Below are positions 1 through 14,210 of a DNA stretch of 20,165 nt, one piece after another. The notes below the pieces were generated by a model. It saw nothing but the letters and a program-made list of their open reading frames with translations, made no database searches and was not told where the DNA came from. The position numbers and the translations under genes are program-made. Source of the stretch: a virus; IMG/VR virus record IMGVR_UViG_3300031656_000049, positions 1 to 20,165 of that record; one strand, 5' to 3'. Position 1 is the stretch's first letter. Each line of letters opens with the position of its first letter.

Positions 1-204
1 CTCGTAGGCAAACGTGTATAGCATTTGCTTATAAAACTCTGTCATACCCCGATCGCTTACACACCAGTCTCGCTTGAAACACTCATACTCGTCGCCTTGC
101 ATGAAGTTTAATCCCATTACTTTTCCATCGCGGTCATACTCTATGTACATCCATCTATCGTTGTCATCGCACCATTGGTGTACTACTTTATCTAATTCTT
201 CCAT
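1..204 (-). CDS. Small unknown protein, partial (runs off left edge)
   Basis: An open frame of 68 codons reads leftward from an ATG at 204 and is still open at base 1. The visible product starts MEELDKVVHQW and is acidic and aromatic-rich, with Cys at residues 12, 41 and 48. I recognise no family. The start is preceded by the ACTATG context used by most leftward genes here. It lies 12 nt downstream of the stop of the gene at 217-606, so both are probably co-transcribed from the promoter at 629-667. Function is unknown. Confidence 0.7.
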   Translation of the reverse strand, partial: MEELDKVVHQWCDDNDRWMYIEYDRDGKVMGLNFMQGDEYECFKRDWCVSDRGMTEFYKQMLYTFAYE

Positions 205-216
205 AGTTATTATATT

Positions 217-606
217 TTAGTCGTTAGTTATTGTTGTGAAATTCCAGTTTTTATTTTTATCTTCGGAAAGATGGGCACATCCGTTTTTTATACAAAATAT
301 TTCGCCACCTCGATCGCTAGTTATATGGAATCCTAATCCGCTATCGCTAAAATCTTTTACTTCGTATAGTTTTATAGGAGTAATAAATCTAGCGTTTTGC
401 GCTGTAGTCCAAGCGTAGGTTGTTTCGATCGGTAATTCGTCGGGTATTTGGTTGAACAATTCGTGCCGTATATCCTCGATAAGATCGATTTCAAGGTTTT
501 CCAGGTTAAATGTATAATTTTCGTATTCGTAGTCGAGTATCATACCTAAAAAATCGTGTAGTTTGTGAAATTGTTTTATTGGTAATTCTAATTTTGCTTT
601 TTGCAT
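217..606 (-). CDS. Hypothetical phage protein, 129 aa
   Basis: Complete frame of 129 codons, ATG start in the ACTATG context. The product is acidic, with no membrane segment or signal peptide. Its C-terminal part holds a Phe/Gly/Asp-rich stretch (GLGFHITSDRGGEIFCI) and one Cys-x5-His pattern, not enough to call a metal site. It is the first gene downstream of the 39-bp element at 629-667 and is followed after 12 nt by the partial gene 1-204. I do not recognise the family. By position it is probably an early phage accessory gene. Confidence 0.75.
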   Translation of the reverse strand: MQKAKLELPIKQFHKLHDFLGMILDYEYENYTFNLENLEIDLIEDIRHELFNQIPDELPIETTYAWTTAQNARFITPIKLYEVKDFSDSGLGFHITSDRGGEIFCIKNGCAHLSEDKNKNWNFTTITND

Positions 607-628
607 AGTATTTATATTTTATTTGTTA

Positions 629-667
629 CATTTATATTATCGATCGGTGTTCGTACTCATTTTGTAA
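629..667 (-). promoter_or_regulatory. 39-bp leftward promoter-like element, copy 1
   Basis: On the minus strand: TTACA, 7 nt, TACGA, 9 nt, GATAATATA, 2 nt, TG. It is one of seven copies with identical internal spacing. It lies about 25 nt upstream of the ATG at 606 and overlaps the last codons and stop of the gene at 637-945. TATANNTG at its 3' end resembles the Bacteroidota -7 box (TAnnTTTG). The promoter role is inferred from position and repetition. Confidence 0.75.
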
Positions 668-945
668 GCGGTTTTCTCTGTTCTAGGAAATTGCCTGAGA
701 TCTGCGGTTGGCCTCTGTAGACTTTGCAAAAAGAATTCTTTAGTACAATCTCGTAAATCCGTGGTTGCGTCGATAGCTTCATCATAAGGTGAAATCATCC
801 ACTCTATTTTAGATAGTTCGTGACCTACGTCTTCCAGCATTTTAAGGTATTCGCTTTCGTCAGCGTATAGCATTACCGCATATTTGTATACTGCTTTGTC
901 GTTAAAGTCTAGGACCCATAGGTGCATAGTTTCTTTATTTTTCAT
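637..945 (-). CDS. Hypothetical phage protein, 102 aa
   Basis: Complete 102-codon frame from an ATG at 945 in the ACTATG context. The product begins MKNKETMHLWVLDFND and has a mixed-charge middle and a basic end. There are no recognisable motifs or membrane segments. It lies 3 nt downstream of the gene at 949-1296 and is the last member of the operon that starts at 1550. Its 3' end overlaps the promoter element at 629-667, so the coding end also carries the regulatory sequence of the next operon. Family unknown. Confidence 0.75.
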   Translation of the reverse strand: MKNKETMHLWVLDFNDKAVYKYAVMLYADESEYLKMLEDVGHELSKIEWMISPYDEAIDATTDLRDCTKEFFLQSLQRPTADLRQFPRTEKTAYKMSTNTDR

Positions 946-948
946 AGT

Positions 949-1296
949 TTATTTTTTAAATAGTTGTTGTAGTGATTTAACATCTTTTAGTCGGTTTATA
1001 TTAGTGACTTCATCGTCATGGTCATCTAGATCACCTCGCATATCGTTGAGGTGCTCGTACATGTGGTCGAGCGCAACCATTAGTACGTTGTGTTCCGCAT
1101 TCGTTAGTGTAGCGGTACCTATGTGCACCTGGGGTTTATTTTGTTCAATGAAACCGTGTAGTAATTCGTTTATATTGCCGAGATAACGGTGCATAGTGAA
1201 AGATTGTTCAGGTGAGATATCACCGCTCTCGAGATGGAAGTCTTCGCATATTCCCGACCAGTCGATGTTTACATATTCTTCAGTTAAATTCTTCAT
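949..1296 (-). CDS. Hypothetical phage protein, 115 aa
   Basis: Complete 115-codon frame from an ATG at 1296 in the ACTATG context. The product is acidic and helical-looking, with an Asp-rich segment (DDHDDEVTN) near residue 95 and several His. No family recognised. It is the middle gene of a leftward operon whose first gene is at 1350-1550 and whose last is at 637-945 (3-nt gap). There is no 39-bp element directly upstream, consistent with co-transcription from 1573-1611. Confidence 0.75.
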   Translation of the reverse strand: MKNLTEEYVNIDWSGICEDFHLESGDISPEQSFTMHRYLGNINELLHGFIEQNKPQVHIGTATLTNAEHNVLMVALDHMYEHLNDMRGDLDDHDDEVTNINRLKDVKSLQQLFKK

Positions 1297-1311
1297 AGTT
1301 ATAGTTTTTAG

Positions 1312-1416
1312 TTAATAGTTATCTTCGCCCTCGTCAAATTCGGCATGTTCTAAACATTCGCCACATATTTCTTCGCTAATATAGCTCGGTTCACATTCCA
1401 GAGATCCTCCACATTG
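1312..1416 (-). pseudogene. Startless open frame with zinc-ribbon-like Cys pattern
   Basis: In a different frame from the gene at 1350-1550, 34 codons are open between a TAA just upstream and a TAA at 1312-1314. The product reads QCGGSLECEPSY, then ISEEICGECLEHAEFDEG, with Cys at 2, 8, 18 and 21. That composition looks like a real small metal-binding protein rather than a shadow frame, but the frame has no ATG, GTG or TTG. It overlaps the 3' end of 1350-1550. Options are a recent indel that broke a small gene, ribosomal frameshifting out of the upstream gene, or a sequence error. The choice between them is inference. Confidence 0.4.
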
Positions 1417-1550
1417 TTATATAGTTTATTTAGTAATAATATTTCATCTTCGTAATCTATTACGTGTTCCGTAAGATCGTTGGTTACTTGACTTACTTCG
1501 AATAGAAGTGATTGGTAACACAGGTGTAATTCTTTATCCGTTAGTTTCAT
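1350..1550 (-). CDS. Hypothetical phage protein, 66 aa
   Basis: Complete 66-codon frame, ATG at 1550 in the ACTATG context, about 25 nt downstream of the 39-bp element at 1573-1611. The product (MKLTDKELHLCYQ at its start) looks helical and acidic up to about residue 50, then ends in a basic tail (LAKKYVANV). That tail overlaps another open frame (1312-1416) with a Cys-rich composition. The natural product may therefore be a different length if a frameshift occurred here. First gene of the operon that continues with 949-1296. Family unknown. Confidence 0.65.
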   Translation of the reverse strand: MKLTDKELHLCYQSLLFEVSQVTNDLTEHVIDYEDEILLLNKLYNNVEDLWNVNRAILAKKYVANV

Positions 1551-1572
1551 AGTGTATAGTTATTATTAGTTA

Positions 1573-1611
1573 CATTTATATTATCAACTCGCTTTCGTAT
1601 AGGTATTGTAA
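1573..1611 (-). promoter_or_regulatory. 39-bp leftward promoter-like element, copy 2
   Basis: Minus strand: TTACA, 7 nt, TACGA, 9 nt, GATAATATA, AA, TG. It sits between the end of the small gene 1626-1781 and the start of 1350-1550, placing it as the promoter of the three-gene operon 1550 to 637. Its 3' flank (TGTAAC) matches copy 1 more closely than the other copies. Confidence 0.75.
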
Positions 1612-1625
1612 ACACCCATAGAACC

Positions 1626-1781
1626 TTAAAATTGTTTAAGCAAGTATTCTCGGTTGTAAAACCCGATTAACTCGGACATCGTAAATTTCTTTCTCCACTG
1701 AGTAGTCTGTTCTACATAAGTGTCTTCACCGATCTTTTCTACATTACCGTCTTCCATCCAATCTTTAAATTCTTTTTCCAT
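1626..1781 (-). CDS. Small hypothetical protein, 51 aa
   Basis: A 51-codon frame from an ATG at 1781 (ACTATG context) to a TAA at 1626-1628. The product begins MEKEFKDWMEDGNVEK and ends NREYLLKQF. It is acidic in the first half, basic and aromatic in the second, and probably soluble. It has its own 39-bp element 38 nt upstream (1819-1857) and is followed by the next element (1573-1611), so it appears to be a single-gene transcription unit. The dedicated promoter, start context and sensible composition support a real gene despite its length. Function unknown. Confidence 0.6.
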   Translation of the reverse strand: MEKEFKDWMEDGNVEKIGEDTYVEQTTQWRKKFTMSELIGFYNREYLLKQF

Positions 1782-1818
1782 AGTGTATTATTTAGTAGTT
1801 ATAGTGTCATTCGTTATT

Positions 1819-1857
1819 CATATATATTATCAATCCACTGTCGTATTCGTTTTGTAA
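1819..1857 (-). promoter_or_regulatory. 39-bp leftward promoter-like element, copy 3
   Basis: Minus strand: TTACA, 7 nt, TACGA, 9 nt, GATAATATA, TA, TG, followed by AAT. It directly precedes the 51-aa gene at 1626-1781. Confidence 0.75.
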
Positions 1858-1925
1858 AAGGTATGTTATTTATTATATAGTAAAAAATGTATTACAGGTA
1901 TTACTCCACTCCTCGTTGTGTGTAA

Positions 1926-1997
1926 TTAGAGTAAATTCACGATTTTGACCGATCTTTTGGATAAAAACACGTGTTTAGGGTAGATAGCGTATAGCAT
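1926..1997 (-). CDS. Possible 23-aa leader peptide
   Basis: A 23-codon frame starts at an ATG at 1997 and stops at a TAA at 1926-1928. It lies 22 nt downstream of the leftward 46-bp element at 2019-2064 and is preceded by an A-rich stretch like those before other genes here. The product begins MLYAIYPKHVFLSK and is basic. The start overlaps a TGCTATACGC decamer, so the ATG may simply be part of that element. It could be a leader peptide or chance. Confidence 0.2.
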   Translation of the reverse strand: MLYAIYPKHVFLSKRSVKIVNLL

Positions 1998-2018
1998 TTT
2001 ACTTTATTTACTAAAACT

Positions 2019-2064
2019 GCGACATTAGCTAGTTATATAGTATAGTAAGAGGCTATTGTCACAC
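2019..2064 (-). promoter_or_regulatory. 46-bp two-arm promoter-like element, leftward copy
   Basis: On the minus strand: GTGTGACAATAG, 23 nt containing TATACTATATAA, then GCTAATGTCGC. The same two arms with exactly the same 23-nt spacing occur rightward at 4763-4808. AAGTGT and TATACT are about 16 nt apart, compatible with a -35/-10 layout. It would drive leftward transcription through the otherwise empty stretch 1858-2018 into the gene at 1626-1781. The 380-bp gap 1782-2160 otherwise holds only the promoter at 1819-1857, a TGCTATACGC copy (minus strand, 1987-1995) and a terminator. Confidence 0.55.
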
Positions 2065-2131
2065 TTTTTTGTAGGACGGAGTCTACTCTTCCGACGCATA
2101 CCAGGTATACTCAGGCCATTAATTTAAAGTA

Positions 2132-2151
2132 AAAGGGGAATTTCACCCCTT
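2132..2151 (-). terminator. Rho-independent-type terminator after the 105-aa gene A
   Basis: Read leftward, a perfect 6-bp stem AAGGGG/CCCCTT with a 7-nt loop is followed by TTACTTTAAATT. It begins 10 nt after the stop codon of the gene at 2161-2478. Stem strength and the T-rich tail fit an intrinsic terminator for that gene. Confidence 0.65.
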
Positions 2152-2160
2152 AGTAGCTAA

Positions 2161-2478
2161 TTACTTAGCTTCTTTGTCTAGTTCTACTCTAGTACTTAAG
2201 TGTCTAGTCATTGTAGGCATATCGGTACTTTGAGACCAATATCCTCTCTTGATCCAACAAGGCATTATGGTTAGTTTAGGTAACATTGCTTCCAATACTT
2301 CGTCGTGATTGTAGGTGACCTCAACATTTCGGTTGTTTATAAAGGTTATTACTTGATTTCTACCTAGCCAACCTTTTCTTACTACAAAGTTCTTTCGGTT
2401 AATAGGTGGGAAGATTAGAGCTTTCTCTTCATTTGACATTTTCGCAATAGCTTGGGTAATTAGGTCTTGATTTTTCAT
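2161..2478 (-). CDS. 105-aa protein, paralogue A
   Basis: Complete 105-codon frame, ATG at 2478. It aligns without gaps to the product of 3120-3437, with about 60% identical residues counted by eye. Shared blocks are MSNEEKA, IFPPI, RNQVITF, VTYNHD, AMLPKL, CWIKR and YWSQST. The conserved Trp, Cys and His residues and ungapped conservation point to a compact folded domain under selection, but I do not recognise the family. It is a single-gene unit with its own 39-bp promoter (2530-2568) and terminator (2132-2151). An A/T tandem-repeat leader lies upstream. Role unknown; by position probably early. Confidence 0.8.
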   Translation of the reverse strand: MKNQDLITQAIAKMSNEEKALIFPPINRKNFVVRKGWLGRNQVITFINNRNVEVTYNHDEVLEAMLPKLTIMPCWIKRGYWSQSTDMPTMTRHLSTRVELDKEAK

Positions 2479-2481
2479 AGG

Positions 2482-2519
2482 TAATTTAATTTAATTTAAT
2501 TATTATTATTATTAGTTAG
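2482..2519. repeat. A/T tandem repeats in a 5' leader
   Basis: Pentamer repeats (TTAAT) followed by about five ATT trinucleotides lie between the 39-bp element at 2530-2568 and the ATG at 2478. A similar TTA tract occupies the leader at 4272-4295. Confidence 0.7.
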
Positions 2520-2529
2520 TTACTTAATT

Positions 2530-2568
2530 CATATATATTATCAATTCAACCTCGTGTTCAGACTGTAG
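2530..2568 (-). promoter_or_regulatory. 39-bp leftward promoter-like element, copy 4
   Basis: Minus strand: CTACA, 7 nt, CACGA, 9 nt, GATAATATA, TA, TG. It is the most divergent in its first two boxes but keeps every spacing. It drives the gene at 2161-2478. A TGCTATACGC decamer lies 4 nt upstream on the other strand. Confidence 0.75.
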
Positions 2569-2572
2569 AGGT

Positions 2573-2658
2573 GCTATACGCTTCGCTATACGTGTTTACC
2601 CCGTAATACCTAAAATTTGGCTACGGAGCATACCTGTGCTATACGCCCGTGTTGGGCG
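2573..2658. repeat. TGCTATACGC hairpin elements between operons
   Basis: Exact GCTATACGC at 2573-2581 and 2638-2646 and a variant at 2585-2592. The copy at 2638 runs into a strong hairpin, CGCCC (2644-2648) with GGGCG (2654-2658), 5-nt loop, lying a few bases after the stop of the leftward gene 2665-2880. The cluster fills the gap between that gene and the next promoter. It could be a 3'-end hairpin or a regulator site; the sequence does not decide. Confidence 0.55.
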
Positions 2659-2664
2659 GTGTTA

Positions 2665-2880
2665 TTATTTTACTTTATTAAAAGGATTACCACAACCACA
2701 AGTCCAAGTGTTTTTACCTAGTGTGGGTTTATCACACGCACAACTACTTATAACACCATATAAAATTAATTGCTCTTTCTGTATTTTTTCCAAATGTCTT
2801 TTAACACTTTGGGTGCTTACCATAAAAGTATTGTTATCCTCTGCTTCTTGTAGCCAATTTAATAAGTTATCTATTGTCAT
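2665..2880 (-). CDS. Small protein with C-terminal zinc-binding-like motif, 71 aa
   Basis: Complete 71-codon frame, ATG at 2880. The N-terminal 45 residues look helical (MTIDNLLNWLQEAEDNN at the start, then SVKRHLEKIQKEQ). The C-terminus has two CxC pairs about 13 residues apart (CAC and CGC), a plausible four-Cys zinc site. The layout suggests a small helix plus zinc-knuckle protein, perhaps a nucleic-acid or protein-binding regulator, but this is inference. It is the third gene of the leftward operon 3437-2665, 65 nt after the gene at 2946-3086. Confidence 0.7.
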   Translation of the reverse strand: MTIDNLLNWLQEAEDNNTFMVSTQSVKRHLEKIQKEQLILYGVISSCACDKPTLGKNTWTCGCGNPFNKVK

Positions 2881-2945
2881 CGTTTATTTATTTTGGTTTG
2901 TAATTATTCTCCGCAAAAAATCTTATCTGAATACGTTATATTCAA

Positions 2946-3086
2946 TTAAAAATAACCGCCTTCGTGTAATCTTATATAAGCCTCACAATCTGCAAGACTA
3001 CCTTGATATGCAACGCTATCATCGTCAGCATTTAATACTTGATAAGTGTTGCCCATAAATAGTTGTACTCTAAAATCTCTTTCCAT
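2946..3086 (-). CDS. Small hypothetical protein, 46 aa
   Basis: A 46-codon frame from an ATG at 3086 to a TAA at 2946-2948. The product starts MERDFRVQLFMGNTYQV and ends RLHEGGYF, with a middle DDDSVAYQGSLADCEAYI. The alternation of strand-like and helix-like segments looks like a tiny alpha/beta domain. It lies 33 nt after the paralogue B gene and 65 nt before 2665-2880, so it is the middle gene of that operon. No family recognised. Composition and context make it a probable real gene. Confidence 0.6.
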   Translation of the reverse strand: MERDFRVQLFMGNTYQVLNADDDSVAYQGSLADCEAYIRLHEGGYF

Positions 3087-3119
3087 AATTAATTATTTTT
3101 AAAATCATATAACAACGTG

Positions 3120-3437
3120 TTAACGTAATTGTTGGTTAAGTTCTTCCATTGTAGCCAGATGGCGTACATTGCTTGGCATGTTAGTACTTTGTGACCAGTA
3201 CTTGCGTTTGATCCAGCACGCTTGGAATTGTAGCTTAGGGAGCATTGCATTGAGCACATCATCGTGATTGTAAGTTACTCTTTGATTTTTGTTGTTGACA
3301 AAAGTGATTACTTGATTTCTGTTGAGCCAGCTTTCACGGACCACGAAGTTAGCTCGTGTGATCGGAGGAAAGATTTTTGCTTTTTCTTCGTTGGACATTG
3401 ATTTAAGTGCATTTTGTAAGATTTCATTTGTATTCAT
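3120..3437 (-). CDS. 105-aa protein, paralogue B
   Basis: Complete 105-codon frame, ATG at 3437 in the ACTATG context. It is the ungapped paralogue of the product of 2161-2478 (about 60% identity), with the same block order ending in CWIKR, YWSQST and RHLAT. Differences concentrate in the first 13 and last 10 residues, which suggests a conserved core with variable ends. It is the first gene of an operon continuing with 2946-3086 and 2665-2880, driven from 3461-3499. Two diverged copies in separate operons suggest duplication followed by specialisation. Function unknown. Confidence 0.8.
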   Translation of the reverse strand: MNTNEILQNALKSMSNEEKAKIFPPITRANFVVRESWLNRNQVITFVNNKNQRVTYNHDDVLNAMLPKLQFQACWIKRKYWSQSTNMPSNVRHLATMEELNQQLR

Positions 3438-3460
3438 AGTTATAGTATTTAATTGTTATT

Positions 3461-3499
3461 CAGTTATATTATCGATTAGTATTCGTATTAGTATTGTAA
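3461..3499 (-). promoter_or_regulatory. 39-bp leftward promoter-like element, copy 5
   Basis: Minus strand: TTACA, 7 nt, TACGA, 9 nt, GATAATATA, AC, TG. Its TTACA box is part of the last sense codons of the small gene 3488-3613, so coding and regulatory sequence overlap. It lies 23 nt upstream of the ATG at 3437. Confidence 0.75.
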
Positions 3500-3613
3500 G
3501 TTAATTAATTCTTCAATATATTCCTGTAATTCTTGTCGATCCGGAGTATGGAAGTGTATTTGAGATTCATTGATTAAAGTTTTGATTTTTTGTAATTTTT
3601 GTAAATTTGACAT
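3488..3613 (-). CDS. Small hypothetical protein, 41 aa
   Basis: A 41-codon frame, ATG at 3613 and TAA at 3488-3490. The product starts MSNLQKLQKIKTLINE and ends in a second amphipathic stretch (DRQELQEYIEELINLQY), which looks like a helical hairpin. The start context (ATATCAAATG) is shared with the gene at 4071-4241, and the leaders of the two genes resemble each other. It has its own 39-bp element at 3650-3688, and its 3' end overlaps the next element at 3461-3499. Function unknown. Confidence 0.55.
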   Translation of the reverse strand: MSNLQKLQKIKTLINESQIHFHTPDRQELQEYIEELINLQY

Positions 3614-3649
3614 TTGATATTTGTTTTAGTTATTATTAGTTTCTTTATT

Positions 3650-3688
3650 CACATATATTATCAATTACACTTCGTACCCAGACTGTAA
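3650..3688 (-). promoter_or_regulatory. 39-bp leftward promoter-like element, copy 6
   Basis: Minus strand: TTACA, 7 nt, TACGA, 9 nt, GATAATATA, TG, TG. It precedes the 41-aa gene at 3488-3613. A TGCTATACGC cluster abuts it at 3691. Confidence 0.75.
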
Positions 3689-3690
3689 GT

Positions 3691-3745
3691 GCTATACGCA
3701 ATGCTATGCGTGCTATACGCCTTCGGCTTTCGCCTCGGGCTTTTT
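3691..3745. repeat. TGCTATACGC cluster and GC-rich hairpin
   Basis: Exact GCTATACGC at 3691-3699 and 3712-3720 with a variant GCTATGCGT at 3703-3711. ACGC at 3696-3699 can pair with GCGT at 3708-3711. The last copy leads into a hairpin, GCC 3719-3721 with GGC 3738-3740 and GGC 3725-3727 with GCC 3732-3734, followed on the plus strand by five T. In the plus orientation this resembles an intrinsic terminator, although all genes here are leftward. Confidence 0.5.
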
Positions 3746-3834
3746 GATCCGATTAGTTTCGGAGTGCATATCCAGCTCCTCGAGCCAGATCAGCAAGTAT
3801 ACTCTTAAGTCTTTGCATGTTCATTGGTTTTAGA

Positions 3835-4005
3835 TTAGTATATGTTGGGGTCTTTGATTCGGCTGTCGATCGCATTCGAGACCAGTAAGGCGTGTATCTT
3901 GAAGCCGTCGATAGGTTGTATACCTTTCTTGTAGTCCGCTTCACTTCGTTGTTTCATGTAGAACTTTATTAGTTCATTGATTGTGTTGTGATCTTGTAAT
4001 GTCAT
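3835..4005 (-). CDS. Small hypothetical protein, 56 aa
   Basis: A 56-codon frame from an ATG at 4005 to a TAA at 3835-3837. The product starts MTLQDHNTINELIKFYMKQR and continues with a basic helix and SNAIDSRIKDPNIY at the end. I prefer this frame to an overlapping GTG-initiated 63-codon frame (3753-3944) for two reasons: it has the ACTATG start context, and its ATG overlaps the stop of the preceding gene as ATGA, the usual sign of translational coupling. Third gene of the operon from 4307-4345. The stretch 3746-3834 then holds no supported gene. Function unknown. Confidence 0.55.
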   Translation of the reverse strand: MTLQDHNTINELIKFYMKQRSEADYKKGIQPIDGFKIHALLVSNAIDSRIKDPNIY

Positions 4006-4067
4006 AGTGTTATGTTATTAGAGTTTAGTATTGATGTTAGTTCCAGTATAAAGTTTAGATAGTCCAT
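4002..4067 (-). CDS. Micro-protein, 21 aa
   Basis: A 21-codon frame, ATG at 4067 in the ACTATG context, TGA at 4002-4004 overlapping the next ATG (4005). The product starts MDYLNFILELTSILN: a short hydrophobic/acidic helix. It follows the stop of 4071-4241 after 3 nt. The tight packing on both sides suggests it is translated, at least as a coupling device, but at this length chance cannot be excluded. Confidence 0.4.
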   Translation of the reverse strand: MDYLNFILELTSILNSNNITL

Positions 4068-4070
4068 AGT

Positions 4071-4241
4071 TTATTGTTTATAAGTTTGTATTAATTTATT
4101 TATATCTTTTAGATTTGAGAAGTGATAGTGATAGATAACTTCTTTTGTATTTGAATTGAATATTGTAAAGTCATACATTTTGTGATTTGAGCAATAGTAA
4201 ATTTGAAAGAATGTTTTGTTTGAAAAGATTTGATTTGTCAT
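4071..4241 (-). CDS. Small hypothetical protein, 56 aa
   Basis: A 56-codon frame, ATG at 4241, TAA at 4071-4073. The product begins MTNQIFSNKTFFQIYYCSNH and is unusually rich in Phe, Tyr, Asn and His (VIYHYHFSNL), with a helical end. The predicted fold is a small beta-rich domain, which is inference. It is the first gene of the leftward arm next to the strand switch. Its leader contains eight TTA repeats and starts at the 39-bp element 4307-4345. Function unknown. Confidence 0.55.
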   Translation of the reverse strand: MTNQIFSNKTFFQIYYCSNHKMYDFTIFNSNTKEVIYHYHFSNLKDINKLIQTYKQ

Positions 4242-4271
4242 TTGATATTTATTTAAGTTATTAATTATTAT

Positions 4272-4295
4272 TTATTATTATTATTATTATTATTA
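4272..4295. repeat. TTA trinucleotide tract, eight units
   Basis: Eight uninterrupted TTA units lie within the leader between the promoter element at 4307-4345 and the ATG at 4241. Such tracts can change length by slippage. Confidence 0.85.
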
Positions 4296-4306
4296 ATTTC
4301 TTTATT

Positions 4307-4345
4307 CACTTATATTATCAAAGTCACCTCGTGTCCGTACTGTAA
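4307..4345 (-). promoter_or_regulatory. 39-bp leftward promoter-like element, copy 7
   Basis: Minus strand: TTACA, 7 nt, CACGA, 9 nt, GATAATATA, AG, TG. It is the rightmost copy, driving the operon 4241-3835, and marks the start of the leftward arm. A TGCTATACGC copy lies 2 nt upstream. Confidence 0.75.
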
Positions 4346-4347
4346 AT

Positions 4348-4370
4348 GCTATACGCCATTCGCTTTGCGT
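4348..4370. repeat. TGCTATACGC element with short hairpin
   Basis: Exact GCTATACGC at 4348-4356; ACGC at 4353-4356 can pair with GCGT at 4367-4370. The arrangement beside the 39-bp element repeats that seen at 2573 and 3691. Confidence 0.5.
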
Positions 4371-4740
4371 TGCCCCACACCAGACCTCGGACCTGACCTG
4401 ACCTAACTCCAGACCTGATCCCGGACCTGACCTCATCTAGGATTCATCAGACCTCGTGTAAGGATCTATCAGGATCTAGCAGATAGTTCATGTACATAAC
4501 CTCGTAACCATACACCACACCAGACCACACCAGACCAGACCACACCGTACCACGGAAAAAACCTCAATCCTTTCACGGGAAATATAGTAGCGCATTGTCT
4601 GTTGTAATAATACTATACGTGTTTGCACGCATATATACGACCGGGAACCTGGAACGACAGGGGGGCTGGGTAAACGAAAGCAGTTCGCCAAACCATAATG
4701 TTTTTAAATTGTATAGTGCAACCCCATGCTTCCATATTTG
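4371..4740. other. Non-coding strand-switch region with short repeats
   Basis: No convincing gene lies between the divergent arms. From about 4380 to 4440 there are repeated ACCTGACCT/CAGACC units. From about 4507 to 4550 there is a C/A-rich, G-poor tract made of CACACCAGAC-like units, whose other strand is GGTCTGGTGTGG-like. A short hairpin CGTG TTTG CACG lies at about 4618-4629. The region is richer in G+C than its surroundings. The 67-codon minus frame here is low-complexity and rejected as a gene. By position it may hold an origin or regulatory hub; this is inference. Confidence 0.5.
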
Positions 4741-4762
4741 CAATAAATTTTTTTTAAGCCTT

Positions 4763-4808
4763 GTGTGACAATAGGTTGTTATATATAATAGTAGTAGGCT
4801 AACGTCGC
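4763..4808 (+). promoter_or_regulatory. 46-bp two-arm promoter-like element, rightward copy
   Basis: GTGTGACAATAG at 4763-4774, 23 nt containing TATATAAT, then GCTAACGTCGC at 4798-4808. TTGTGT and TATAAT are 17 nt apart, a good -35/-10 layout. The element lies 38 nt upstream of the first rightward gene (4847) and shares both arms and spacing with the leftward copy at 2019-2064. Probable promoter of the late arm. Confidence 0.65.
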
Positions 4809-4846
4809 CTTTTTAAGTTTATTTAAACGCGCGTAATCATACAGGT

Positions 4847-5092
4847 ATGGCACAAAATTTATCAGCTACGGCGAGAAGAGACAAAGCGGCAAGAGACAAA
4901 GCGTATGCAATGACCCCTGACAGAAAGGCTAAGAAGACACATGCGGAGCGTGAAGCTAGAGCTAATCCTTCTGCAGCTAAGGGTAAAGATTTTGACCATA
5001 AGGACCAGAAGTGGAAAACGCCTGCTAAGAATAGAGGTAATGATGGGGAGGGTACCAAAAAAGAGGGTGGTAAAAAATACAATACTAAATAA
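4847..5092 (+). CDS. Small basic protein, first rightward gene, 81 aa
   Basis: Complete 81-codon frame, ATG at 4847, the first gene after the rightward promoter element. The product is very rich in Lys, Arg, Ala and Asp. It has a helical N-terminal half (ATARRDKAARDKAYAM), a DFDHKD segment at about 48-53, and a C-terminal NRGNDGEGTKKEGGKKY tail. It contains TPAKN at 58-62, close to the SPAK motif of the later virion-like proteins. No transmembrane segment. I recall similar small basic proteins in marine phages but know no function; DNA or RNA binding is plausible from composition only. Confidence 0.75.
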   Translation: MAQNLSATARRDKAARDKAYAMTPDRKAKKTHAEREARANPSAAKGKDFDHKDQKWKTPAKNRGNDGEGTKKEGGKKYNTK

Positions 5093-5096
5093 ACAC

Positions 5097-5507
5097 ATGG
5101 ATAAGATATTAAAGTTTTTCGGAGCTAGTGTTATAGGAGACATTGGGAAAGTCATAGATGATTTATTCACGAGTGATGAGGAGAGAGATGCTGCTAAGAA
5201 TAAGATCCTACAAGTATTAAAAGAAAAAGAATTAGAGCTGCAAAAAATGCAGACTGATATAATAATCGCAGAAGCAAAAGGTAACTGGCTACAAAGAAGC
5301 TGGAGACCAATTCTTATGTTAAGTTTCGGCTTTATAGTTATATACACAAAGTTTATATCTCAACTCGCATCACAATTAATAACACCTGTTCTAGAGCCAG
5401 AGTTCTGGAGCCTACTAAACTTAGGTATAGGGGGTTATGTTATTGGGCGTAGTGGAGAAAAAATAGCTGCAATAGTAGCGAATAAAATAAACATAACAAA
5501 AAAATAA
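5097..5507 (+). CDS. Holin, GTA-type three-TM family
   Basis: 136 codons from the ATG at 5097. An in-frame upstream extension exists but overlaps the previous gene and is not used. The layout matches the GTA-type 3TM holin family: an amphipathic N-terminus (KILKFFGASVIGDIGKVID), a charged coiled segment at about 26-60, and the signature GNWLQRSWRP at 62-71. Two membrane segments follow (about 71-88 and 103-117), then GRSGEK and a basic tail. Such holins form inner-membrane lesions that time lysis and release the endolysin. No endolysin is seen nearby. It sits at the start of the late arm, 4 nt after 4847-5092. Confidence 0.8.
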   Translation: MDKILKFFGASVIGDIGKVIDDLFTSDEERDAAKNKILQVLKEKELELQKMQTDIIIAEAKGNWLQRSWRPILMLSFGFIVIYTKFISQLASQLITPVLEPEFWSLLNLGIGGYVIGRSGEKIAAIVANKINITKK

Positions 5508-5517
5508 ATAAAAAACA

Positions 5518-5805
5518 ATGGGACAATTTTTTAACCAACCAGATTTTGGGACAGAAGCAAAAGCAATATTACCTACAGACACTATTGCTGCGGGAACAAA
5601 CCTTAAGGGTGCATGCTTATACGTGGGGATCGCGGGGGATATAAGCGTAATAATGACAAGCAAATTCGGACCTAATGGGGAATATCCGGTAGTACCAGCG
5701 GCAATAAAATTCAGAAACGTACCTGCAGGATCTATATTGCCTGTAATAGCTGATTTTGTAGTGGCAACCGGAACTACCGCCTCTGGTCTAGTAGCTTTAA
5801 AGTAA
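5518..5805 (+). CDS. Small putative virion protein, 95 aa
   Basis: Complete 95-codon frame starting MGQFFNQPDFGTEAKAIL. The product is rich in Ala, Gly, Thr, Val and Pro with short beta-like segments and almost no charge clusters, a composition typical of small virion decoration or tail-spike-associated proteins. I have seen similar proteins in environmental marine phages next to tail-fibre genes but cannot assign a function. It is followed after 1 nt by 5807-5974 and then by the large adhesin gene, so a role with the adhesin is a reasonable guess. Confidence 0.7.
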   Translation: MGQFFNQPDFGTEAKAILPTDTIAAGTNLKGACLYVGIAGDISVIMTSKFGPNGEYPVVPAAIKFRNVPAGSILPVIADFVVATGTTASGLVALK

Positions 5806-5806
5806 T

Positions 5807-5974
5807 ATGGCAGTTGGTAATGGCATGGGTATAGGAATCCCAATGGTAAACTTAGGTTTAGGAGCGAGCTCAGCAGTTCCCGGGTTATTAGCCCTTCTAC
5901 AAGCGCGTGCAACATATTACGAAAATCAAACATGTACAACCGCGATTTTAGATAAAATAGAAAAAATACAATAA
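5807..5974 (+). CDS. Small hydrophobic Gly/Ala-rich protein, 55 aa
   Basis: A 55-codon frame from an ATG at 5807 (1 nt after the previous stop) to a TAA at 5972-5974 (1 nt before the next ATG). The first 32 residues are Gly-, Ala- and Leu-rich (MAVGNGMGIGIPMVNLGLGA, then VPGLLALLQ) and could insert in a membrane or pack in the virion. The C-terminal part is a short polar helix (TTAILDKIEKIQ). The perfect packing between two genes argues that it is real. Function unknown. Confidence 0.65.
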   Translation: MAVGNGMGIGIPMVNLGLGASSAVPGLLALLQARATYYENQTCTTAILDKIEKIQ

Positions 5975-5975
5975 T

Positions 5976-8711
5976 ATGGCAAATTTACTTGAGTCTGCGA
6001 GTGTTGTACTGACACCGACAGCGTATAATAATGGCAAAGCACTATGCATTAAACCCGACGACGGAAGCGGTGACTTTGATTTCAGTAGAAATTCAGCCGC
6101 TACTCGTGTAAACGCTCAAGGGTTAGTTGAGGATGTTCAGATACTATCTAGTAATTTGGTGCAGAACGGCGATTTTAGTCAATTAGGAAGTCAAGAAATA
6201 ACTAATGGGAATTTTTCACAGCAAGGTTCGCAATTAATTGTAAACGGAGATTTTGCTACAGATAGCGATTGGAATTTAGGTGGCTCAGACACCCCTATAA
6301 TAGAAAACGGATTTTTAAAATTTGGTATATCAAATGGGACATATTCAAGGGCGAGACAAAATAATGCTTCTATCATTGGAAATTGCAAGGTTACTTATAC
6401 AGTCGTAAATAGTAGTGCTTCTACATTGGCAATTAGAGAATATGCAGGAGGAAACAACGAGAGTGTTCCTGCAACAATAGGCACGCATACAATTTATAAA
6501 AACTTTATTGCAAACGGAATTAGTTTTCAAGCAGGGGGTGTTGACGGTGGTGTCTTAGAAATAGATAATGTTTCAGTCGTTGAGGTGGGGCAAGATTGGA
6601 CAATAGCAAGCGGCTCGGGTTGGAGTATAGGAGAGGATAAAATAATTGGAGTTAATAGCTTAAATTTTTCAGCTTATCAAGCTTCTTTAGTATCTGGTAA
6701 AACATATAAAATAACTTATGAGGTTAAAGACTATGTAAGCGGTACTTTTGGAATTAGAGCAAACACCGCAGCAGGATTAACTGTTACTGCGAATGGTGTT
6801 TACACAGATTATATAACATCAAACGGAAATAAAGTTTATTTAATGGGTTTCGGAACTTTTAACGGCTCTGTAACAAATATTAGTGTTAAGGAAGTCGGGC
6901 AAAATTGGTTTAAAGATGCTAACTGGTCAATAGGTTATAATGTTGCTACAAGTACTGGTGGAGGTAGAATGTTTCAATCAATATCCGCTCTAGAAGGTAA
7001 CACAGGAACAAAAGTAAAAGTAAGTTTTAATATTACAGAGGTAACAAGTGGCGGTGTTAAAGTTGATTGTTATGGAGCGGCATCTTCTGTTATAACAGAA
7101 GTAGGAACACACACTTTTACAGGAACAACAACAAACTCATTAAACTTATACATTAATAATTCGGGCACTGGTAACTTAGTAGGTTCTGTAACGAATATTT
7201 CTGTAATCGAAATTACAAATGATACTAACCTACCTAGAATAAACTACGAGGGCTTCAGTTATCAAGATGCTTTAGGTAGTGAGGAAATTACAAATGGAGA
7301 CTTTTCTAGCGGAGCTACAGGTTGGGTTGTAGGTACAGGATGGAGTGTTGTAGATGGAAAAGCCAATAAAGTGTCGGGAACAGAAAGTGATATAAACCAA
7401 ACAAACGGCTTGGCAACGCAAGGTTTAAGTTATTTATTTAGCTATGACGTTAACTTAACATCGGGTACAGTACAAGCAGCAGTCAAGGGTGGTTCAGGTC
7501 AATTATTTAATACAGTTGGAACTCATACCGTATCAGAAATAATAGTAGCAGGCTCGGGACCTACAGATTTTAAGATTACTGCAAAATCCGGTTTCAATGG
7601 TTCAGTAGACAATGTATCTGTAAAAGAATATAAAGGGCAAGAAGTAGTGCCTAGTTCGGGCTGCGGAAACTGGTTGTGGGAACCTCAGTCAACAAACCTA
7701 ATAACTTATTCAGAAGATTTTACTCAGTGGGATAAAATAAATTCAAATGTAATTAGTATAAATGAAACAAATCCTATTAATTCTGTAGCTTATGAAATAG
7801 AATCTACTGTGTCCTCTAATAAATCAAGAATTTATTATAATAGTTTAATGGTTTCGGGCAGTAGTTATTCAACATCATATTTAGTAAAGCCGTCGTCAAA
7901 TTCTCCTCAATATTTGGGGTTTGCTTGCATTAGTAATACAACACCAGATGTTTTTTATAATTTTTCAAATAACCAATTTGAGGATAATACTATTGTGGGT
8001 AATGCAGCTAAATGTGAAAGTATACAAATGCTTAACGGTTGGAGGCTTTTAAAAGTGCCAATACATAATAATGTAACCAACACAAGACTCAATATTTATC
8101 AAGGTGGTATCTCGGGCGGCGAGCTAATAGGAGTTAATGGTCAGTCTTATTATTTAAAATTCGCACAATTAGAAGAACAATCCTACGTAACATCTTACAT
8201 ACCCACAGATGGAACAACAGTAACACGTAATCAAGATGCCTGTACCAATGGAGGTAGTGTTTCAACAATAAACTCAACAGAGGGTGTTTTATATGCAGAG
8301 ATAGCAGCTTTGGCAAATGAAAATGTTCAGAGAATTTTAAGTATAAGTGACGGAACACATAACAACACTGTAAAACTTGGCTTTTTAAATAGTGCTACAG
8401 ACTATAGACTCTTCGCAGACATTAGATTAGGTGGTGTTAATCAAGCCTTTTTAACATTTAATTTCGGAGCAGTTGCACCAACTTTTAAAAAGTGTGCTAT
8501 AAAGTATAAACAAAATGATTTTGCCTTGTGGATTGATGGTGTAGAGGTTGCAACAGATACAAGTGGTAATACTTTTTCTGCAAATACTTTAAATGAATTG
8601 ACTTTTACAAGGGGAGATGCTGCTCAAAATTTCTTCGGAGAAACTAAATGCCTAGCAGTTTGGAAAGAGGCTTTAACAGATACACAACTTGCAGAACTAA
8701 CAACTATATAG
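5976..8711 (+). CDS. Large tail fibre / adhesin with carbohydrate-binding-like repeats
   Basis: 911 codons. An N-terminal module has the FSRNSAATRVNAQGLVED motif (about 36-53), a phrase common in phage tail proteins. It is followed by repeated NGDF/NGNF segments (about 64, 77, 90 and again near 440) with downstream Trp and Gly, as in family 4/9/22-type carbohydrate-binding jelly-rolls. At about 560-585 comes WEPQSTNLITYSEDF, another recurring phage-tail phrase beginning a further module. The last about 145 residues (from 768) look like a LamG/concanavalin-A-like domain (DGTHNNTVKLGF, later DGVEVATDTSGN). No signal peptide. Most likely the receptor-binding protein recognising surface glycans of the host; the internal repetition suggests module duplication. 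Module boundaries are estimates by eye. Confidence 0.75.
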   Translation: MANLLESASVVLTPTAYNNGKALCIKPDDGSGDFDFSRNSAATRVNAQGLVEDVQILSSNLVQNGDFSQLGSQEITNGNFSQQGSQLIVNGDFATDSDWNLGGSDTPIIENGFLKFGISNGTYSRARQNNASIIGNCKVTYTVVNSSASTLAIREYAGGNNESVPATIGTHTIYKNFIANGISFQAGGVDGGVLEIDNVSVVEVGQDWTIASGSGWSIGEDKIIGVNSLNFSAYQASLVSGKTYKITYEVKDYVSGTFGIRANTAAGLTVTANGVYTDYITSNGNKVYLMGFGTFNGSVTNISVKEVGQNWFKDANWSIGYNVATSTGGGRMFQSISALEGNTGTKVKVSFNITEVTSGGVKVDCYGAASSVITEVGTHTFTGTTTNSLNLYINNSGTGNLVGSVTNISVIEITNDTNLPRINYEGFSYQDALGSEEITNGDFSSGATGWVVGTGWSVVDGKANKVSGTESDINQTNGLATQGLSYLFSYDVNLTSGTVQAAVKGGSGQLFNTVGTHTVSEIIVAGSGPTDFKITAKSGFNGSVDNVSVKEYKGQEVVPSSGCGNWLWEPQSTNLITYSEDFTQWDKINSNVISINETNPINSVAYEIESTVSSNKSRIYYNSLMVSGSSYSTSYLVKPSSNSPQYLGFACISNTTPDVFYNFSNNQFEDNTIVGNAAKCESIQMLNGWRLLKVPIHNNVTNTRLNIYQGGISGGELIGVNGQSYYLKFAQLEEQSYVTSYIPTDGTTVTRNQDACTNGGSVSTINSTEGVLYAEIAALANENVQRILSISDGTHNNTVKLGFLNSATDYRLFADIRLGGVNQAFLTFNFGAVAPTFKKCAIKYKQNDFALWIDGVEVATDTSGNTFSANTLNELTFTRGDAAQNFFGETKCLAVWKEALTDTQLAELTTI

Positions 8712-8713
8712 AT

Positions 8714-9043
8714 ATGATGCAAATATATAAAACGAATTTTCCAACAGAACAACAAGGGAAAGACTACCTATTAAATCTAGGGGTAATAGTAGAAGTAGAG
8801 GGAGAAATAGTCTTTGCTAAAAATACGGCGGCGGTTGTTTATATTGGCAAGGTGGTAGAAGTACCAGCTACGTACGATGCAGATGGTAATATTCTAACAC
8901 CAGCAGTTTACTATGACGGCTATGCCATTGACGTTATGTCAAGTTCTGATTTGGATTTTGGAACTTATGAGGTATATCCAGGTGATGACGCAGCGCATAG
9001 CTTTTACGGATGGGCAAAAAGCGCGGAAGTACCGCCTAGTTAG
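8714..9043 (+). CDS. Hypothetical protein downstream of adhesin, 109 aa
   Basis: 109 codons from the ATG at 8714 (a second ATG follows at 8717). A longer in-frame start at 8648 would overlap the adhesin gene by 64 nt and is not preferred. The product begins MMQIYKTNFPTEQQGKDYL and is acidic and beta-rich, with a TYDADGNILTPAVYYDGYAI segment. Its position directly after the receptor-binding protein is where phages often keep a fibre assembly chaperone or a small tail component, but no motif supports either. Last gene before the 100-nt gap at 9044-9143. Confidence 0.65.
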   Translation: MMQIYKTNFPTEQQGKDYLLNLGVIVEVEGEIVFAKNTAAVVYIGKVVEVPATYDADGNILTPAVYYDGYAIDVMSSSDLDFGTYEVYPGDDAAHSFYGWAKSAEVPPS

Positions 9044-9087
9044 ATCGCAAGATTAAATCAAAGCAATAATAGAACAATAAAACCAAG

Positions 9088-9116
9088 TTTTTTATAATTA
9101 CACGTAACTATATAAT
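9088..9116 (+). promoter_or_regulatory. Possible internal rightward promoter
   Basis: In one of the few gaps of the late arm, TATAAT at 9111-9116 follows a T-run at 9088-9093 with 17 nt between. It lies 28 nt upstream of the ATG at 9144. It lacks the two arms of the 46-bp element. The AT-rich background makes a chance match likely, so this is weak. Confidence 0.3.
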
Positions 9117-9143
9117 AAGAGTTTAAAACAAACAAATAAATAA

Positions 9144-9515
9144 ATGGCAAAAAGAATTAGAATACCAGGGTTTAGAAATGATATAATGTTGAACGCGGAT
9201 GAAATTATGTATGCAGAAGTGGGAGGTGATAAAAGAGCTCCCTATGTAGCAATATACTTTAATAACGCAGACGCTGTCGTACAAGACACAAAAAGGGCTG
9301 AGGCACACCCTAATGGTTTGATAGCGCTAAACATTAGCATACTATCGTTAGATGCTCTTTCAGAATGTCAAAAGTTGCTGCAAGGTATTAACAATGCTCT
9401 TACGGGATTTGGTAACGGGTTAACCGTTGTAGATCATAATTACGGTGACATTGCAACTGTAATTTGGCAAACAAACAATGTAACTCCATCTGTTATTGCC
9501 CCTAAAAAACTTTAA
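9144..9515 (+). CDS. Hypothetical protein upstream of groEL, 123 aa
   Basis: Complete 123-codon frame starting MAKRIRIPGFRNDIMLNAD. The product shows alternating beta-type segments (ADEIMYAEVGG, APYVAIYFNNADAVVQ) and a helix around 70-85 (LSLDALSECQKLLQGINNAL). A compact alpha/beta protein is likely; no family recognised. It is the first gene after the 9044-9143 gap and 31 nt before groEL, so it probably shares a transcript with the chaperonin genes. It could be a small virion protein; this is inference from neighbours. Confidence 0.65.
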   Translation: MAKRIRIPGFRNDIMLNADEIMYAEVGGDKRAPYVAIYFNNADAVVQDTKRAEAHPNGLIALNISILSLDALSECQKLLQGINNALTGFGNGLTVVDHNYGDIATVIWQTNNVTPSVIAPKKL

Positions 9516-9546
9516 ATAAAATAAATTAACAATTAAATAAAATAAA

Positions 9547-11145
9547 ATGGAATTTAATCTACCAAGTCAAATCGTAAAAGATTTGAATTTCGGCGATAAG
9601 GCACGAAATAAAATATTGTCAGGCGTTTATAAATTATCCGACGCAGTGAAGTCAACATTAGGAGCTTCAGGAAAATGCGTAATATATGAGGACGCAATGG
9701 GCAGACCGGTGATAACAAAAGACGGGGTAACCGTTGCAGAAAGCGTAGTCTTAATGGACCCGGTCGAGAACATAGGTGCAACCTTGATAAAGGAAGCAGC
9801 TAATAATACAGTGAGAGAAGCAGGTGACGGTACTACTACAGCTACCGTTCTTGCCTCTTCATTATTAACAGGATTAAACCAATACAAGGGTGAAGAAAAG
9901 ATTAGGAGTATTAAAGACGGCATTCAAGAATGTTATAAAGAAATTGTGGATTACCTTGACGATGCCAGCATACCAGTTGAAGGAGACATGCTTAAACAGG
10001 TTGCTTATATCAGTTGTAATAATGACAAAAGTCTTGGAGACAAAATTGGAGAAGCTTTCGAAAAAGTTGGAAAGAATGGTGTCGTTCTAATGGAAGACTC
10101 CGAAACAAATGATACGTATGTAGACTTTGTGGAAGGGACTCAATTTAATGCGGGTATTAAATCTCAACATTTATTAACAGACAAAGACAAAGGGACAGCC
10201 GTACTTGAAAATCCATACGTTTTAATAGTGAGTTCAAATATACCAAGTGTACGACGTATACAAAGCATACTAGAGCATGTAGTTAAAACAAAAAGAGCAT
10301 TGCTTATAGTTGCTCCTATGGACCAGCAACCGTACGCTACATTGTTAGCGAACAAGGTTAAGGGTAATATAAAAGTAAACATTGTTGATCTCCCGGGGTT
10401 TGGGCCAACTAAGCAAGATACAATTGAAGACTTAGCTATATTAACAGGGGCCACTGTTGTAAACGAAGAACTTGGTGATGATTTAGACTTAATAGATCCA
10501 GGCGTTTTAGGAGAAGTGATAAAATCTGTTACTGATAGCAAGAACACTACCTTGCAAATTAAAGAAAACACAGATGATTTATCTGAAAGGATAATAGAAG
10601 TAAACAATAAAATAGAGAAAGAAACAAACGGTTATATCAAGAAGAAGCTTGAAGCGCGTTTGTCTATGCTAACAGGTAAGGTTGGTGTCATTTATGTAGG
10701 TGCCGATTCAGCTGTTGAACTGAAAGAAAAGAAAGATAGAGTTGAAGACGCAATCCACGCGACTAAAGCTGCTTTACAAGAGGGTATTATACCCGGAGGC
10801 GGAACTGCTTTATTAAACGCTTCTCAACTTATAGAGCCTAAAAACGATGGTTACAGCATATTGTTAAAAGCTATACAAGAGCCATACAATATAATACTAG
10901 GTAATGCGGGGTATTCTGATTACGAATTTCCAAAAGCTAGATCAGAAGCAAGCGACGCCAAGGAAGACTGGGTAGGTATCGGAGTAGATGTAACTTGCGG
11001 TTGTTATAAAAGAATGATAGAAAGCGGCATTATAGATCCCGTGCTAGTAACCAAGTCTGCGTTAAAGAATGCGATAAGCGTTGCTACCACAATTATATCA
11101 GCTGATTGTATAATCTCAAATGTAAGATCTCTTGAAAGCAATTAA
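9547..11145 (+). CDS. groEL: Phage-encoded chaperonin GroEL
   Basis: 532 codons, close to bacterial GroEL length. The equatorial ATP site is intact: TKDGVTVA at 57-64 (Asp59 equivalent to E. coli Asp52), GDGTTT at 93-98 (Asp94 equivalent to Asp87), VEDA at 399-402 (Asp401 equivalent to Asp398) and PGGG at 416-419. The apical region is diverged, with LPGFGPTKQDTIEDLAILTG retained. The C-terminus ends SNVRSLESN without the flexible GGM-repeat tail common in bacterial GroEL. This is an ATP-driven double-ring folding chamber acting with the overlapping GroES. Phages that carry chaperonins are thought to use them for virion proteins; here it lies within the virion gene block. The A-rich start region has no Shine-Dalgarno. 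Confidence 0.95.
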   Translation: MEFNLPSQIVKDLNFGDKARNKILSGVYKLSDAVKSTLGASGKCVIYEDAMGRPVITKDGVTVAESVVLMDPVENIGATLIKEAANNTVREAGDGTTTATVLASSLLTGLNQYKGEEKIRSIKDGIQECYKEIVDYLDDASIPVEGDMLKQVAYISCNNDKSLGDKIGEAFEKVGKNGVVLMEDSETNDTYVDFVEGTQFNAGIKSQHLLTDKDKGTAVLENPYVLIVSSNIPSVRRIQSILEHVVKTKRALLIVAPMDQQPYATLLANKVKGNIKVNIVDLPGFGPTKQDTIEDLAILTGATVVNEELGDDLDLIDPGVLGEVIKSVTDSKNTTLQIKENTDDLSERIIEVNNKIEKETNGYIKKKLEARLSMLTGKVGVIYVGADSAVELKEKKDRVEDAIHATKAALQEGIIPGGGTALLNASQLIEPKNDGYSILLKAIQEPYNIILGNAGYSDYEFPKARSEASDAKEDWVGIGVDVTCGCYKRMIESGIIDPVLVTKSALKNAISVATTIISADCIISNVRSLESN

Positions 11146-11389
11146 CTACTACATCGTTATAGATAAGATAAAGGAGGCTCCCAAAACGGTTGCTGGCCTA
11201 GAATTAACTGAAACACAGAACACGGACATTAGGTATTTAAAAGCTGAGGTTATAAGCGCTGGTGATAAAGTTGATTATATAAAAGAAGGTAGTGTTGTTA
11301 GATATGACAAGCACGCAGGGCATGGGATAGAATGGAATGACAAAATGTATCACGTCATTACTATAAATGATATAGTGCTAGTTGAATGA
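11132..11389 (+). CDS. groES: Phage-encoded co-chaperonin GroES (TTG start)
   Basis: 85 codons, slightly shorter than bacterial GroES (about 95-97). The order matches GroES: an N-terminal beta strand (YYIVIDKI), a mobile-loop-like stretch (APKTVAGLELTET, about 16-28), then a core with EVISAGDKVDYIKEGSVVRYDKHAG, and DIVLVE at the end. The start is TTG at 11132, overlapping groEL by 14 nt. A TAA lies in frame at 11123-11125 and no ATG is available, so TTG is the only sensible start. It caps the GroEL cylinder. Overlap at both ends (ATGA with the next gene) implies coupled translation with groEL and the winged-helix-like gene. Confidence 0.88.
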   Translation: MKAINYYIVIDKIKEAPKTVAGLELTETQNTDIRYLKAEVISAGDKVDYIKEGSVVRYDKHAGHGIEWNDKMYHVITINDIVLVE

Positions 11390-11826
11390 GACTAAGCGCG
11401 CAAGATCTAAGAAATAAGAATATCTTTAAGTATTACAGGCTCGTTAGAAAATGGGCTTGTAAAACTTACGGATTAAAAGACGCAGATTTAGAGTTACTTA
11501 TTTACTTAGATTGTAAAAAGCATTTTATACGTAATGATTTTATTAATGGTGCATATACGTATTCCTGGGATAAAGCAAGATGGGAAAGATTGCGCAAAAA
11601 CGAATGGATAACCATTTTTAGCAAAAGGAATAGAACTACGATGAAGTATAACACTTATACCACATCGTTTAAGTGTAAGCAACTTATAACAAGAATATAT
11701 AGAATATTACTCGGCGAGGAAGATTTACCTACGTCGACAAAGAGCACATTTTATAAAAATAAAACGTATACAGATAAAGTGTTTAACCATGCTATCGATA
11801 ACATGATAAAAGATAGCGAACGATAA
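11386..11826 (+). CDS. Winged-helix-like protein, 146 aa
   Basis: 146 codons, ATG overlapping the groES stop as ATGA. The product is basic. The segment ADLELLIYLDCKKHFIRNDF (about 33-52), then TYSWDKARWERLRKNEWI and a strand pair with RTTMKYNTYTTSFKCKQLITRIYRILLGEED, reads like a MarR-type winged helix: helix, recognition helix, beta wing and C-terminal helix. I recall similar proteins in late regions of Bacteroidota phages. It may be a DNA-binding regulator of late genes or a structural use of the fold. The fold call is inference from pattern, not from a search. Confidence 0.65.
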   Translation: MRLSAQDLRNKNIFKYYRLVRKWACKTYGLKDADLELLIYLDCKKHFIRNDFINGAYTYSWDKARWERLRKNEWITIFSKRNRTTMKYNTYTTSFKCKQLITRIYRILLGEEDLPTSTKSTFYKNKTYTDKVFNHAIDNMIKDSER

Positions 11827-11836
11827 AAATAAGACT

Positions 11837-12262
11837 ATGGCATTTAAAATGACTCCAAAGTCCCCAACCTTAATGGCAACGGGCAAATTCGGATCACCGG
11901 CAAAAAACATGAACAAAGGGTATGGTCCCGCAAAGACTTCTTCTCCAGCTAAGCAAAAATCAGGCAACAGCATGACAGCAGCGGAAAAGAAAGCAATGAA
12001 TGATAGGTCTGTATTTGGACCTGACGGCAAAAATGTTGCAAAGCCACCAAAAAGCAAATCTAAGTCAAAATACGATCTTGATACAACTGCCCCAAAAAAA
12101 GGAAATAAAAATGTTAAAGGGGAAAAGTACGGCAAGTCTCCTGCTAAAAAGAATGGTATGAAATACGATATCAAAGAAGCTAGCAATCAAAATCTTACTG
12201 CAAAGGCTAGAAAACATTTTGCTGAAAATGCTCAACACGATTCTAAGAAAGGGTCTAGATAG
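11837..12262 (+). CDS. Lys-rich protein with three SPAK motifs, 141 aa
   Basis: 141 codons starting MAFKMTPKSPTLMATGKFG. The product is strongly basic and low in complexity, probably disordered. It carries SPAK at 20-23, 36-39 and 101-104 plus GPAK at 30-33, and a KSKSKSK run at about 72-78. It is the first of four adjacent genes whose products share Ser-Pro-x-Lys/Arg motifs, in the position where virion scaffolding, internal head or minor capsid proteins would be expected upstream of terminase and portal. I recall similar SPAK-bearing proteins in marine phages, without known function. DNA-binding or internal head protein is inference. Confidence 0.7.
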   Translation: MAFKMTPKSPTLMATGKFGSPAKNMNKGYGPAKTSSPAKQKSGNSMTAAEKKAMNDRSVFGPDGKNVAKPPKSKSKSKYDLDTTAPKKGNKNVKGEKYGKSPAKKNGMKYDIKEASNQNLTAKARKHFAENAQHDSKKGSR

Positions 12263-12263
12263 T

Positions 12264-12617: not shown

Positions 12618-12619
12618 TT

Positions 12620-13111: not shown

Positions 13112-13123
13112 AAAAATATAAAT

Positions 13124-14193: not shown

Positions 14194-14210
14194 AAATTAA
14201 ATTTAATTAA

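Follow-up and report, generated by a model that had tools for sequence, protein, structure and literature searches.

A predicted promoter family with a constant -10 element and genome-specific upstream boxes in a clade of uncultured two-armed phages

Our analysis revealed that a short sequence repeated seven times in a fragment of viral DNA, hereafter element E, forms a predicted promoter family shared by related phages, a clade with genomes of 60-70 kb whose genes lie in two divergent arms. The window, namely the whole stretch of DNA analysed, is a 20,165-base IMG/VR record with genes for terminase, portal, GroEL and GroES. It spans the divergence of the two arms, one running leftward over 1-4345 and the other rightward from 4847, which we take from gene content and layout as putatively early and late, respectively. 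The same organization is found in five related records of 61-66 kb, with about 42-46 kb of late arm and 16-18 kb of early arm. Among named records, those closest to the window in terminase are MW202828 (63.5%), the elemo phages of Flavobacterium (45%) and the Cellulophaga phages, and the clade forms a large, very common and uncultured group related to flavobacterial phages. Besides the genes of Table 1, the late arm of the relatives ends with a protein of about 2900 aa (8380-17190 in record G005, and equivalents elsewhere), which bears a HAD-phosphatase-like motif, DFDDTLA, and is probably an internal virion protein. The 146-aa late-arm protein of the window is possibly a regulator, and its relatives occur in phages devoid of E as well.

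The pattern YTACA-N7-YACGA-N9-GATAATATA-N2-TG is matched by all seven minus-strand copies exactly where the original prediction had placed them, with neither mismatches nor indels, and no further site with up to three mismatches is found on either strand of the window. Shuffled windows yield 0.01 matches on average and never reach seven; a matrix built on 849 related sites returns exactly the same seven copies and no others, and its control gives 192 real sites versus 0 in a shuffled concatenation of the relatives. Such a set is far beyond chance. The distance from E to the start codon is 22-65 nt, close to the 20-70 nt first proposed. The extent of the element is refined in that conservation also runs downstream (TG-TAACWAA) and inside the N7 spacer. 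Scanning the window for Rfam families and tRNAs gave no match, nor did a nucleotide search of its positions 1-6000 against phages. An octamer, TGCTATAC, is also seen in 8 copies at 16-4354 of the window versus 0.75 expected, three of which (2572, 3690 and 4347) abut or nearly abut E elements.

Table 1. Features of the window
Feature	Position	Strand	Predicted start; gene	Remarks
E copy 1	629..667	-	629; ORF 217-606	exact match; matrix score 43.7
E copy 2	1573..1611	-	1573; ORF 1350-1550	exact match; matrix
E copy 3	1819..1857	-	1819; ORF 1626-1781	exact match; matrix
E copy 4	2530..2568	-	2530; p105 copy a (2161-2478)	exact match; matrix; kept before p105 in relatives
E copy 5	3461..3499	-	3461; p105 copy b (3120-3437)	exact match; matrix; kept before p105 in relatives
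E copy 6	3650..3688	-	3650; ORF 3488-3613 (41 aa)	exact match; matrix
E copy 7	4307..4345	-	4307; ORF 4071-4241	exact match; matrix; first of the early arm
p105 copy a	2161..2478	-		105 aa; kept in E-carrying relatives; weak box-reader candidate
p105 copy b	3120..3437	-		paralogue, 62% identical to copy a
Second L element	2019..2062	+		inside early arm, late-ward orientation
L element	4765..4808	+		before late arm; inverted repeat round AT-rich TATATATAATAG core
GroEL	9547-11145			late arm
GroES-like co-chaperonins (two)	11132-11389, 14689-15282			late arm
146-aa protein	11386-11826	+		late arm; winged-helix regulator look by eye

The exact pattern occurs in at least 118 IMG/VR stretches, the records used being metagenomic and some of them fragmentary. 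Each of 20 records scanned over their full length has 3-14 copies, all on a single strand, and the reversed pattern gives 0; in the five records studied closely this strand is that of the early arm. In near-complete relatives, both the scan and the matrix show E again in front of further genes of that arm. One terminase family is common to 44 of the 49 carriers checked. No E is found in MW202828, elemoA, phi38:1 or phi14:2. For MW202828, a perfect 16-bp palindrome, GTGTCGTTAACGACAC, is seen ten times before the genes of its E-less early arm (144-10169), and this may be an early promoter or operator of its own. On the host side, exact matches among 84,980 species genomes are confined to a few MAG contigs, and the relaxed pattern has 0 matches in 294 Bacteroidia genomes (reversed control, 2), the lone match being an already known phage contig in a 295th genome. 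A host regulon was rejected on these grounds.

From 235 unique sites, the consensus of E is YTACARAYTAAAYACGA-N7-TN-GATAATATAWATG-TAACWAA. When sites are anchored on the upstream box alone, GATAAT is found at a constant distance from it in 422 of 433, its first base is G in 428, and position 39 is a purine in 430. The start-codon spacing behind E is bimodal: at sites with TG at 38-39 the start codon lies mostly 18-24 nt further on (289 of 469 assigned), while at sites without TG it coincides with position 39 in 52 of 242 cases, never lying one base later. These copies with a start codon at position 39 belong to leaderless genes. The spacing of the TG-less sites fits a +1 at position 39, the G of TG, and such position statistics strongly suggest this as the start point. 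GATAAT would then occupy -12 to -7, and the box, 17 bp long, would extend from -38 to -22 with its centre near -30. In many leadered copies, positions 37-42 read ATGTAA, a start followed by a stop codon, at the predicted 5' end.

Several of the initial ideas on E can be judged from this anatomy. Its promoter-like nature is supported, as is its recurrence before same-arm genes. The transcription start, however, had been expected 5-12 nt past the TG, and should rather coincide with its G or lie no more than about 2 nt away, since TG-less copies retain GATAAT, often with ATG at 39. For the same reason TATANNTG probably has no function as a counterpart of the host -7 box, which it resembles, and GATAAT probably acts as the -10 instead. 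The flavobacterial sigma-A promoter TAnnTTTG (PMC9723704) resembles E in being AT-rich and belonging to the same host phylum, and TATANNTG is superficially -7-like, whereas -12 to -5 in E, counted from the start suggested by the leaderless sites, reads GATAATAT and copies without TG exist. The misfit between E and the Bacteroidota -33/-7 promoter was rightly noted.

While GATAAT remains constant, the upstream box is uniform inside each genome and differs between genomes. Certain genomes without standard E carry promoter sets with the same GATAAT and a box of their own, for example CGGACTT-N16 in 40 stretches, and TTGCAAACAAAATACGA, TATARGTTTGAYACGA, CCCCNAACTAAATAC and more in others. This suggests a conserved reader for the -10 and a drifting one for the box; provided that the copies are functional, the box is probably read by a factor which each phage encodes and which drifts with it.

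The 105-aa early protein p105 was considered for this role. In its tree (47 copies), the genomes with the CGGACTT box fall into one clade, the second change there being a type-I locus that holds just one CGGACTT site, while on eight other early-gene trees, sigma and HTH206 (see below) included, this box needs 3-5 changes. However, both p105 types are found in E-box genomes, which weakens the initial link, and in partial Mantel tests several control genes correlate with the box as well as or better than p105 does. Because the correlation is not specific to p105, and co-transfer of a linked gene and promoter could explain the single CGGACTT clade equally well, its candidacy stays weak. The predicted p105 model is confident; its best structural Z is 3.1, and no solved structural relative of the model was found.

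As reader of E, a phage-encoded sigma factor, RNA polymerase or activator had been proposed. The first of these exists in near-complete relatives, and its action on E is what we infer. All five relatives encode a protein of 252-255 aa which is a sigma-70-family factor as judged by Pfam, profile and predicted fold: region 2 matches PF04542 at 6.5e-5, just under the curated cut-off, the profile matches SigA structures at 4.9e-9 over residues 31-133, and the predicted model matches SigA with a Foldseek probability of 1.00. Region 4 is weaker (PF04545, E 0.054; a second SigA-aligned segment of 5.5 bits), and its part 4.2 was rejected as box reader, as the helix does not track the box type. In region 2.4, the SigA profile alignment sets R109 against E. 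coli T440, the residue that reads -12, and K102, R103, G106, R109 and R110 are invariant in 66 homologues. The invariant R109 is consistent with the near-invariant G at -12 in E.

Of the E-carrying records, all 18 that reach 59 kb or more encode sigma (with a broken frame in two), as do 22 of 27 when shorter ones are counted, versus 0 of 4 relatives without E; within one clade, this co-occurrence is compatible with function and with shared ancestry alike. In records G004 and G015 sigma is interrupted by stops or frameshifts, and so is TerL in G015, which may be assembly error. The window's own sigma gene would fall outside the 20,165-base fragment, and two records near the window (terminase 80% or p105 88% identical) do encode one. 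Among 88 sigma loci, only 2 have E directly in front of the gene, which lies about 10 kb into its arm, so that immediate-early use of E would need sigma to be delivered or made beforehand.

A second element, L, bears on how sigma could be made. L is an inverted repeat, GTGACRTTAG...CTAAYGTCRC, of 42-45 bases overall, with 324 unique copies in the relatives and 0 for the reversed control. Each of the six genomes examined has L ahead of its late arm, and L also overlaps the start codon of HTH206, a helix-turn-helix gene found directly upstream of sigma in many loci. The copy at 4765..4808 is likely a late promoter or operator, and these two positions make HTH206 a likely, putative regulator binding L. 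In the window, some 90 bases ending in a terminator-like hairpin, AAGGGGAATTTCACCCCTT, come after the early-arm copy of L; 2019-2150 (+) is possibly a small RNA heading towards the p105 gene.

Taking these together, we favour, at slightly better than even confidence, a scheme in which E would be the promoter of the early/middle arm, the phage sigma with host core RNA polymerase would recognise GATAAT with the unusual G that it has at -12, and the box would be recognised by another phage factor or by some part of the holoenzyme that has been remodelled; drift of this box factor between genomes would leave each with a private box dialect and a constant -10. The sigma gene would be expressed behind HTH206 from L, and its first synthesis thus need not depend on E. 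Our preference for sigma acting on E is a moderate one, drawn from the G at -12, as the host sigma-A recognises TAnnTTTG (PMC9723704). The regulons of phages phiEco32 and 7-11 resemble the E clade in that the late genes and the phage sigma gene lie in opposite arms, and in that phage-specific promoters, whose element is 6-9 bp away from the start, are repeated genome-wide (PMC8948821). Their consensus is GTAAtg-16-aCTA or tAATGTAtA rather than GATAAT, and E differs in its 17-bp box at -38 to -22 with per-genome dialects. In those phages, moreover, the phage sigma drives middle and late genes and host sigma reads the early promoters, whereas E repeats in the early/middle arm (PMC8948821).

This difference leads to a real rival, since L serves both the late arm and the operon of HTH206 and sigma, much as one promoter type of phage 7-11 stands before both its sigma gene and its late genes (PMC8948821), which counts against sigma acting on E. 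It is possible, though on balance doubtful, that the phage sigma reads L, and that host RNA polymerase with host sigma uses E as an early promoter, helped by a phage activator at the -30 box. The position of L before the late arm and over the HTH206 start codon speaks for this, and so do the T4 middle promoters served by MotA and AsiA, where an activator box centred near -30 replaces the -35 at a near-fixed distance from the -10 (PMC2988021), as does the box of E with its putative activator. The T4 box is about 9-10 bp long and about 12 bp from the -10, against 17 bp and 9 bp in E, and T4 middle promoters keep the host TAtaaT with T at -12 (PMC2988021). Against this rival, E has G at -12 in 428 of 433 sites, whereas the flavobacterial primary sigma uses TAnnTTTG at -12 to -5 and that host has sigma54 and ECF factors as its only others (PMC9723704); the host genomes scanned, moreover, lack E.

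Other readers appear less probable. A virion-borne phage RNA polymerase of the crAss or N4 type is improbable, even though the virion polymerase of the crAss-like phage phi14:2 performs rifampicin-resistant early transcription and this phage shares with the E clade GroEL and a genome of two arms, where early genes and late genes are on different strands (PMC10136315); the terminase and portal families in common with flavobacterial relatives and the 2900-aa late protein point the same way. Against it, no aligned DFDxD is conserved in the five near-complete relatives, while the phi14:2 control protein shows SDFDID, and neither motif nor profile detected such a polymerase, although a motif search could miss distant enzymes. 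Moreover the single solved-structure match of the 2900-aa protein is at chance level (E 0.76), and the promoter looks bacterial, its -10 hexamer lying 7 nt from the start. Host promoters are used by many phages, so a transcription factor or an alternative sigma of the host might be thought of; considering that relaxed E is absent from the 294 Bacteroidia genomes, that the box dialect differs per phage genome and that the carriers are confined to one clade, we regard this as very improbable. The nearness of E to start codons would also suit an RNA leader or translation signal, or a replication or packaging site. This is extremely improbable, as none of the seven copies examined folds better than its shuffles, in leaderless genes E sits a fixed distance ahead of the start codon, and the layout of box and -10 is that of a promoter.

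Going beyond the favoured reading by the phage sigma, we tentatively suggest, as something possible more than probable, that a virion polymerase is absent and that sigma together with a fast-drifting box-binder, perhaps p105, makes up a two-part promoter code, constant at the -10 and private to each genome in its upstream word. If true, such a code could bar co-infecting relatives from each other's early promoters. The E system provides a testable transcription programme for very common, uncultured phages, and an uncommon natural promoter set in which one half is fixed and the other half diverges, thus allowing direct tests of how recognition is split between sigma factors and activators. Altogether, E can serve as an early-gene marker for metagenomic phage genomes.
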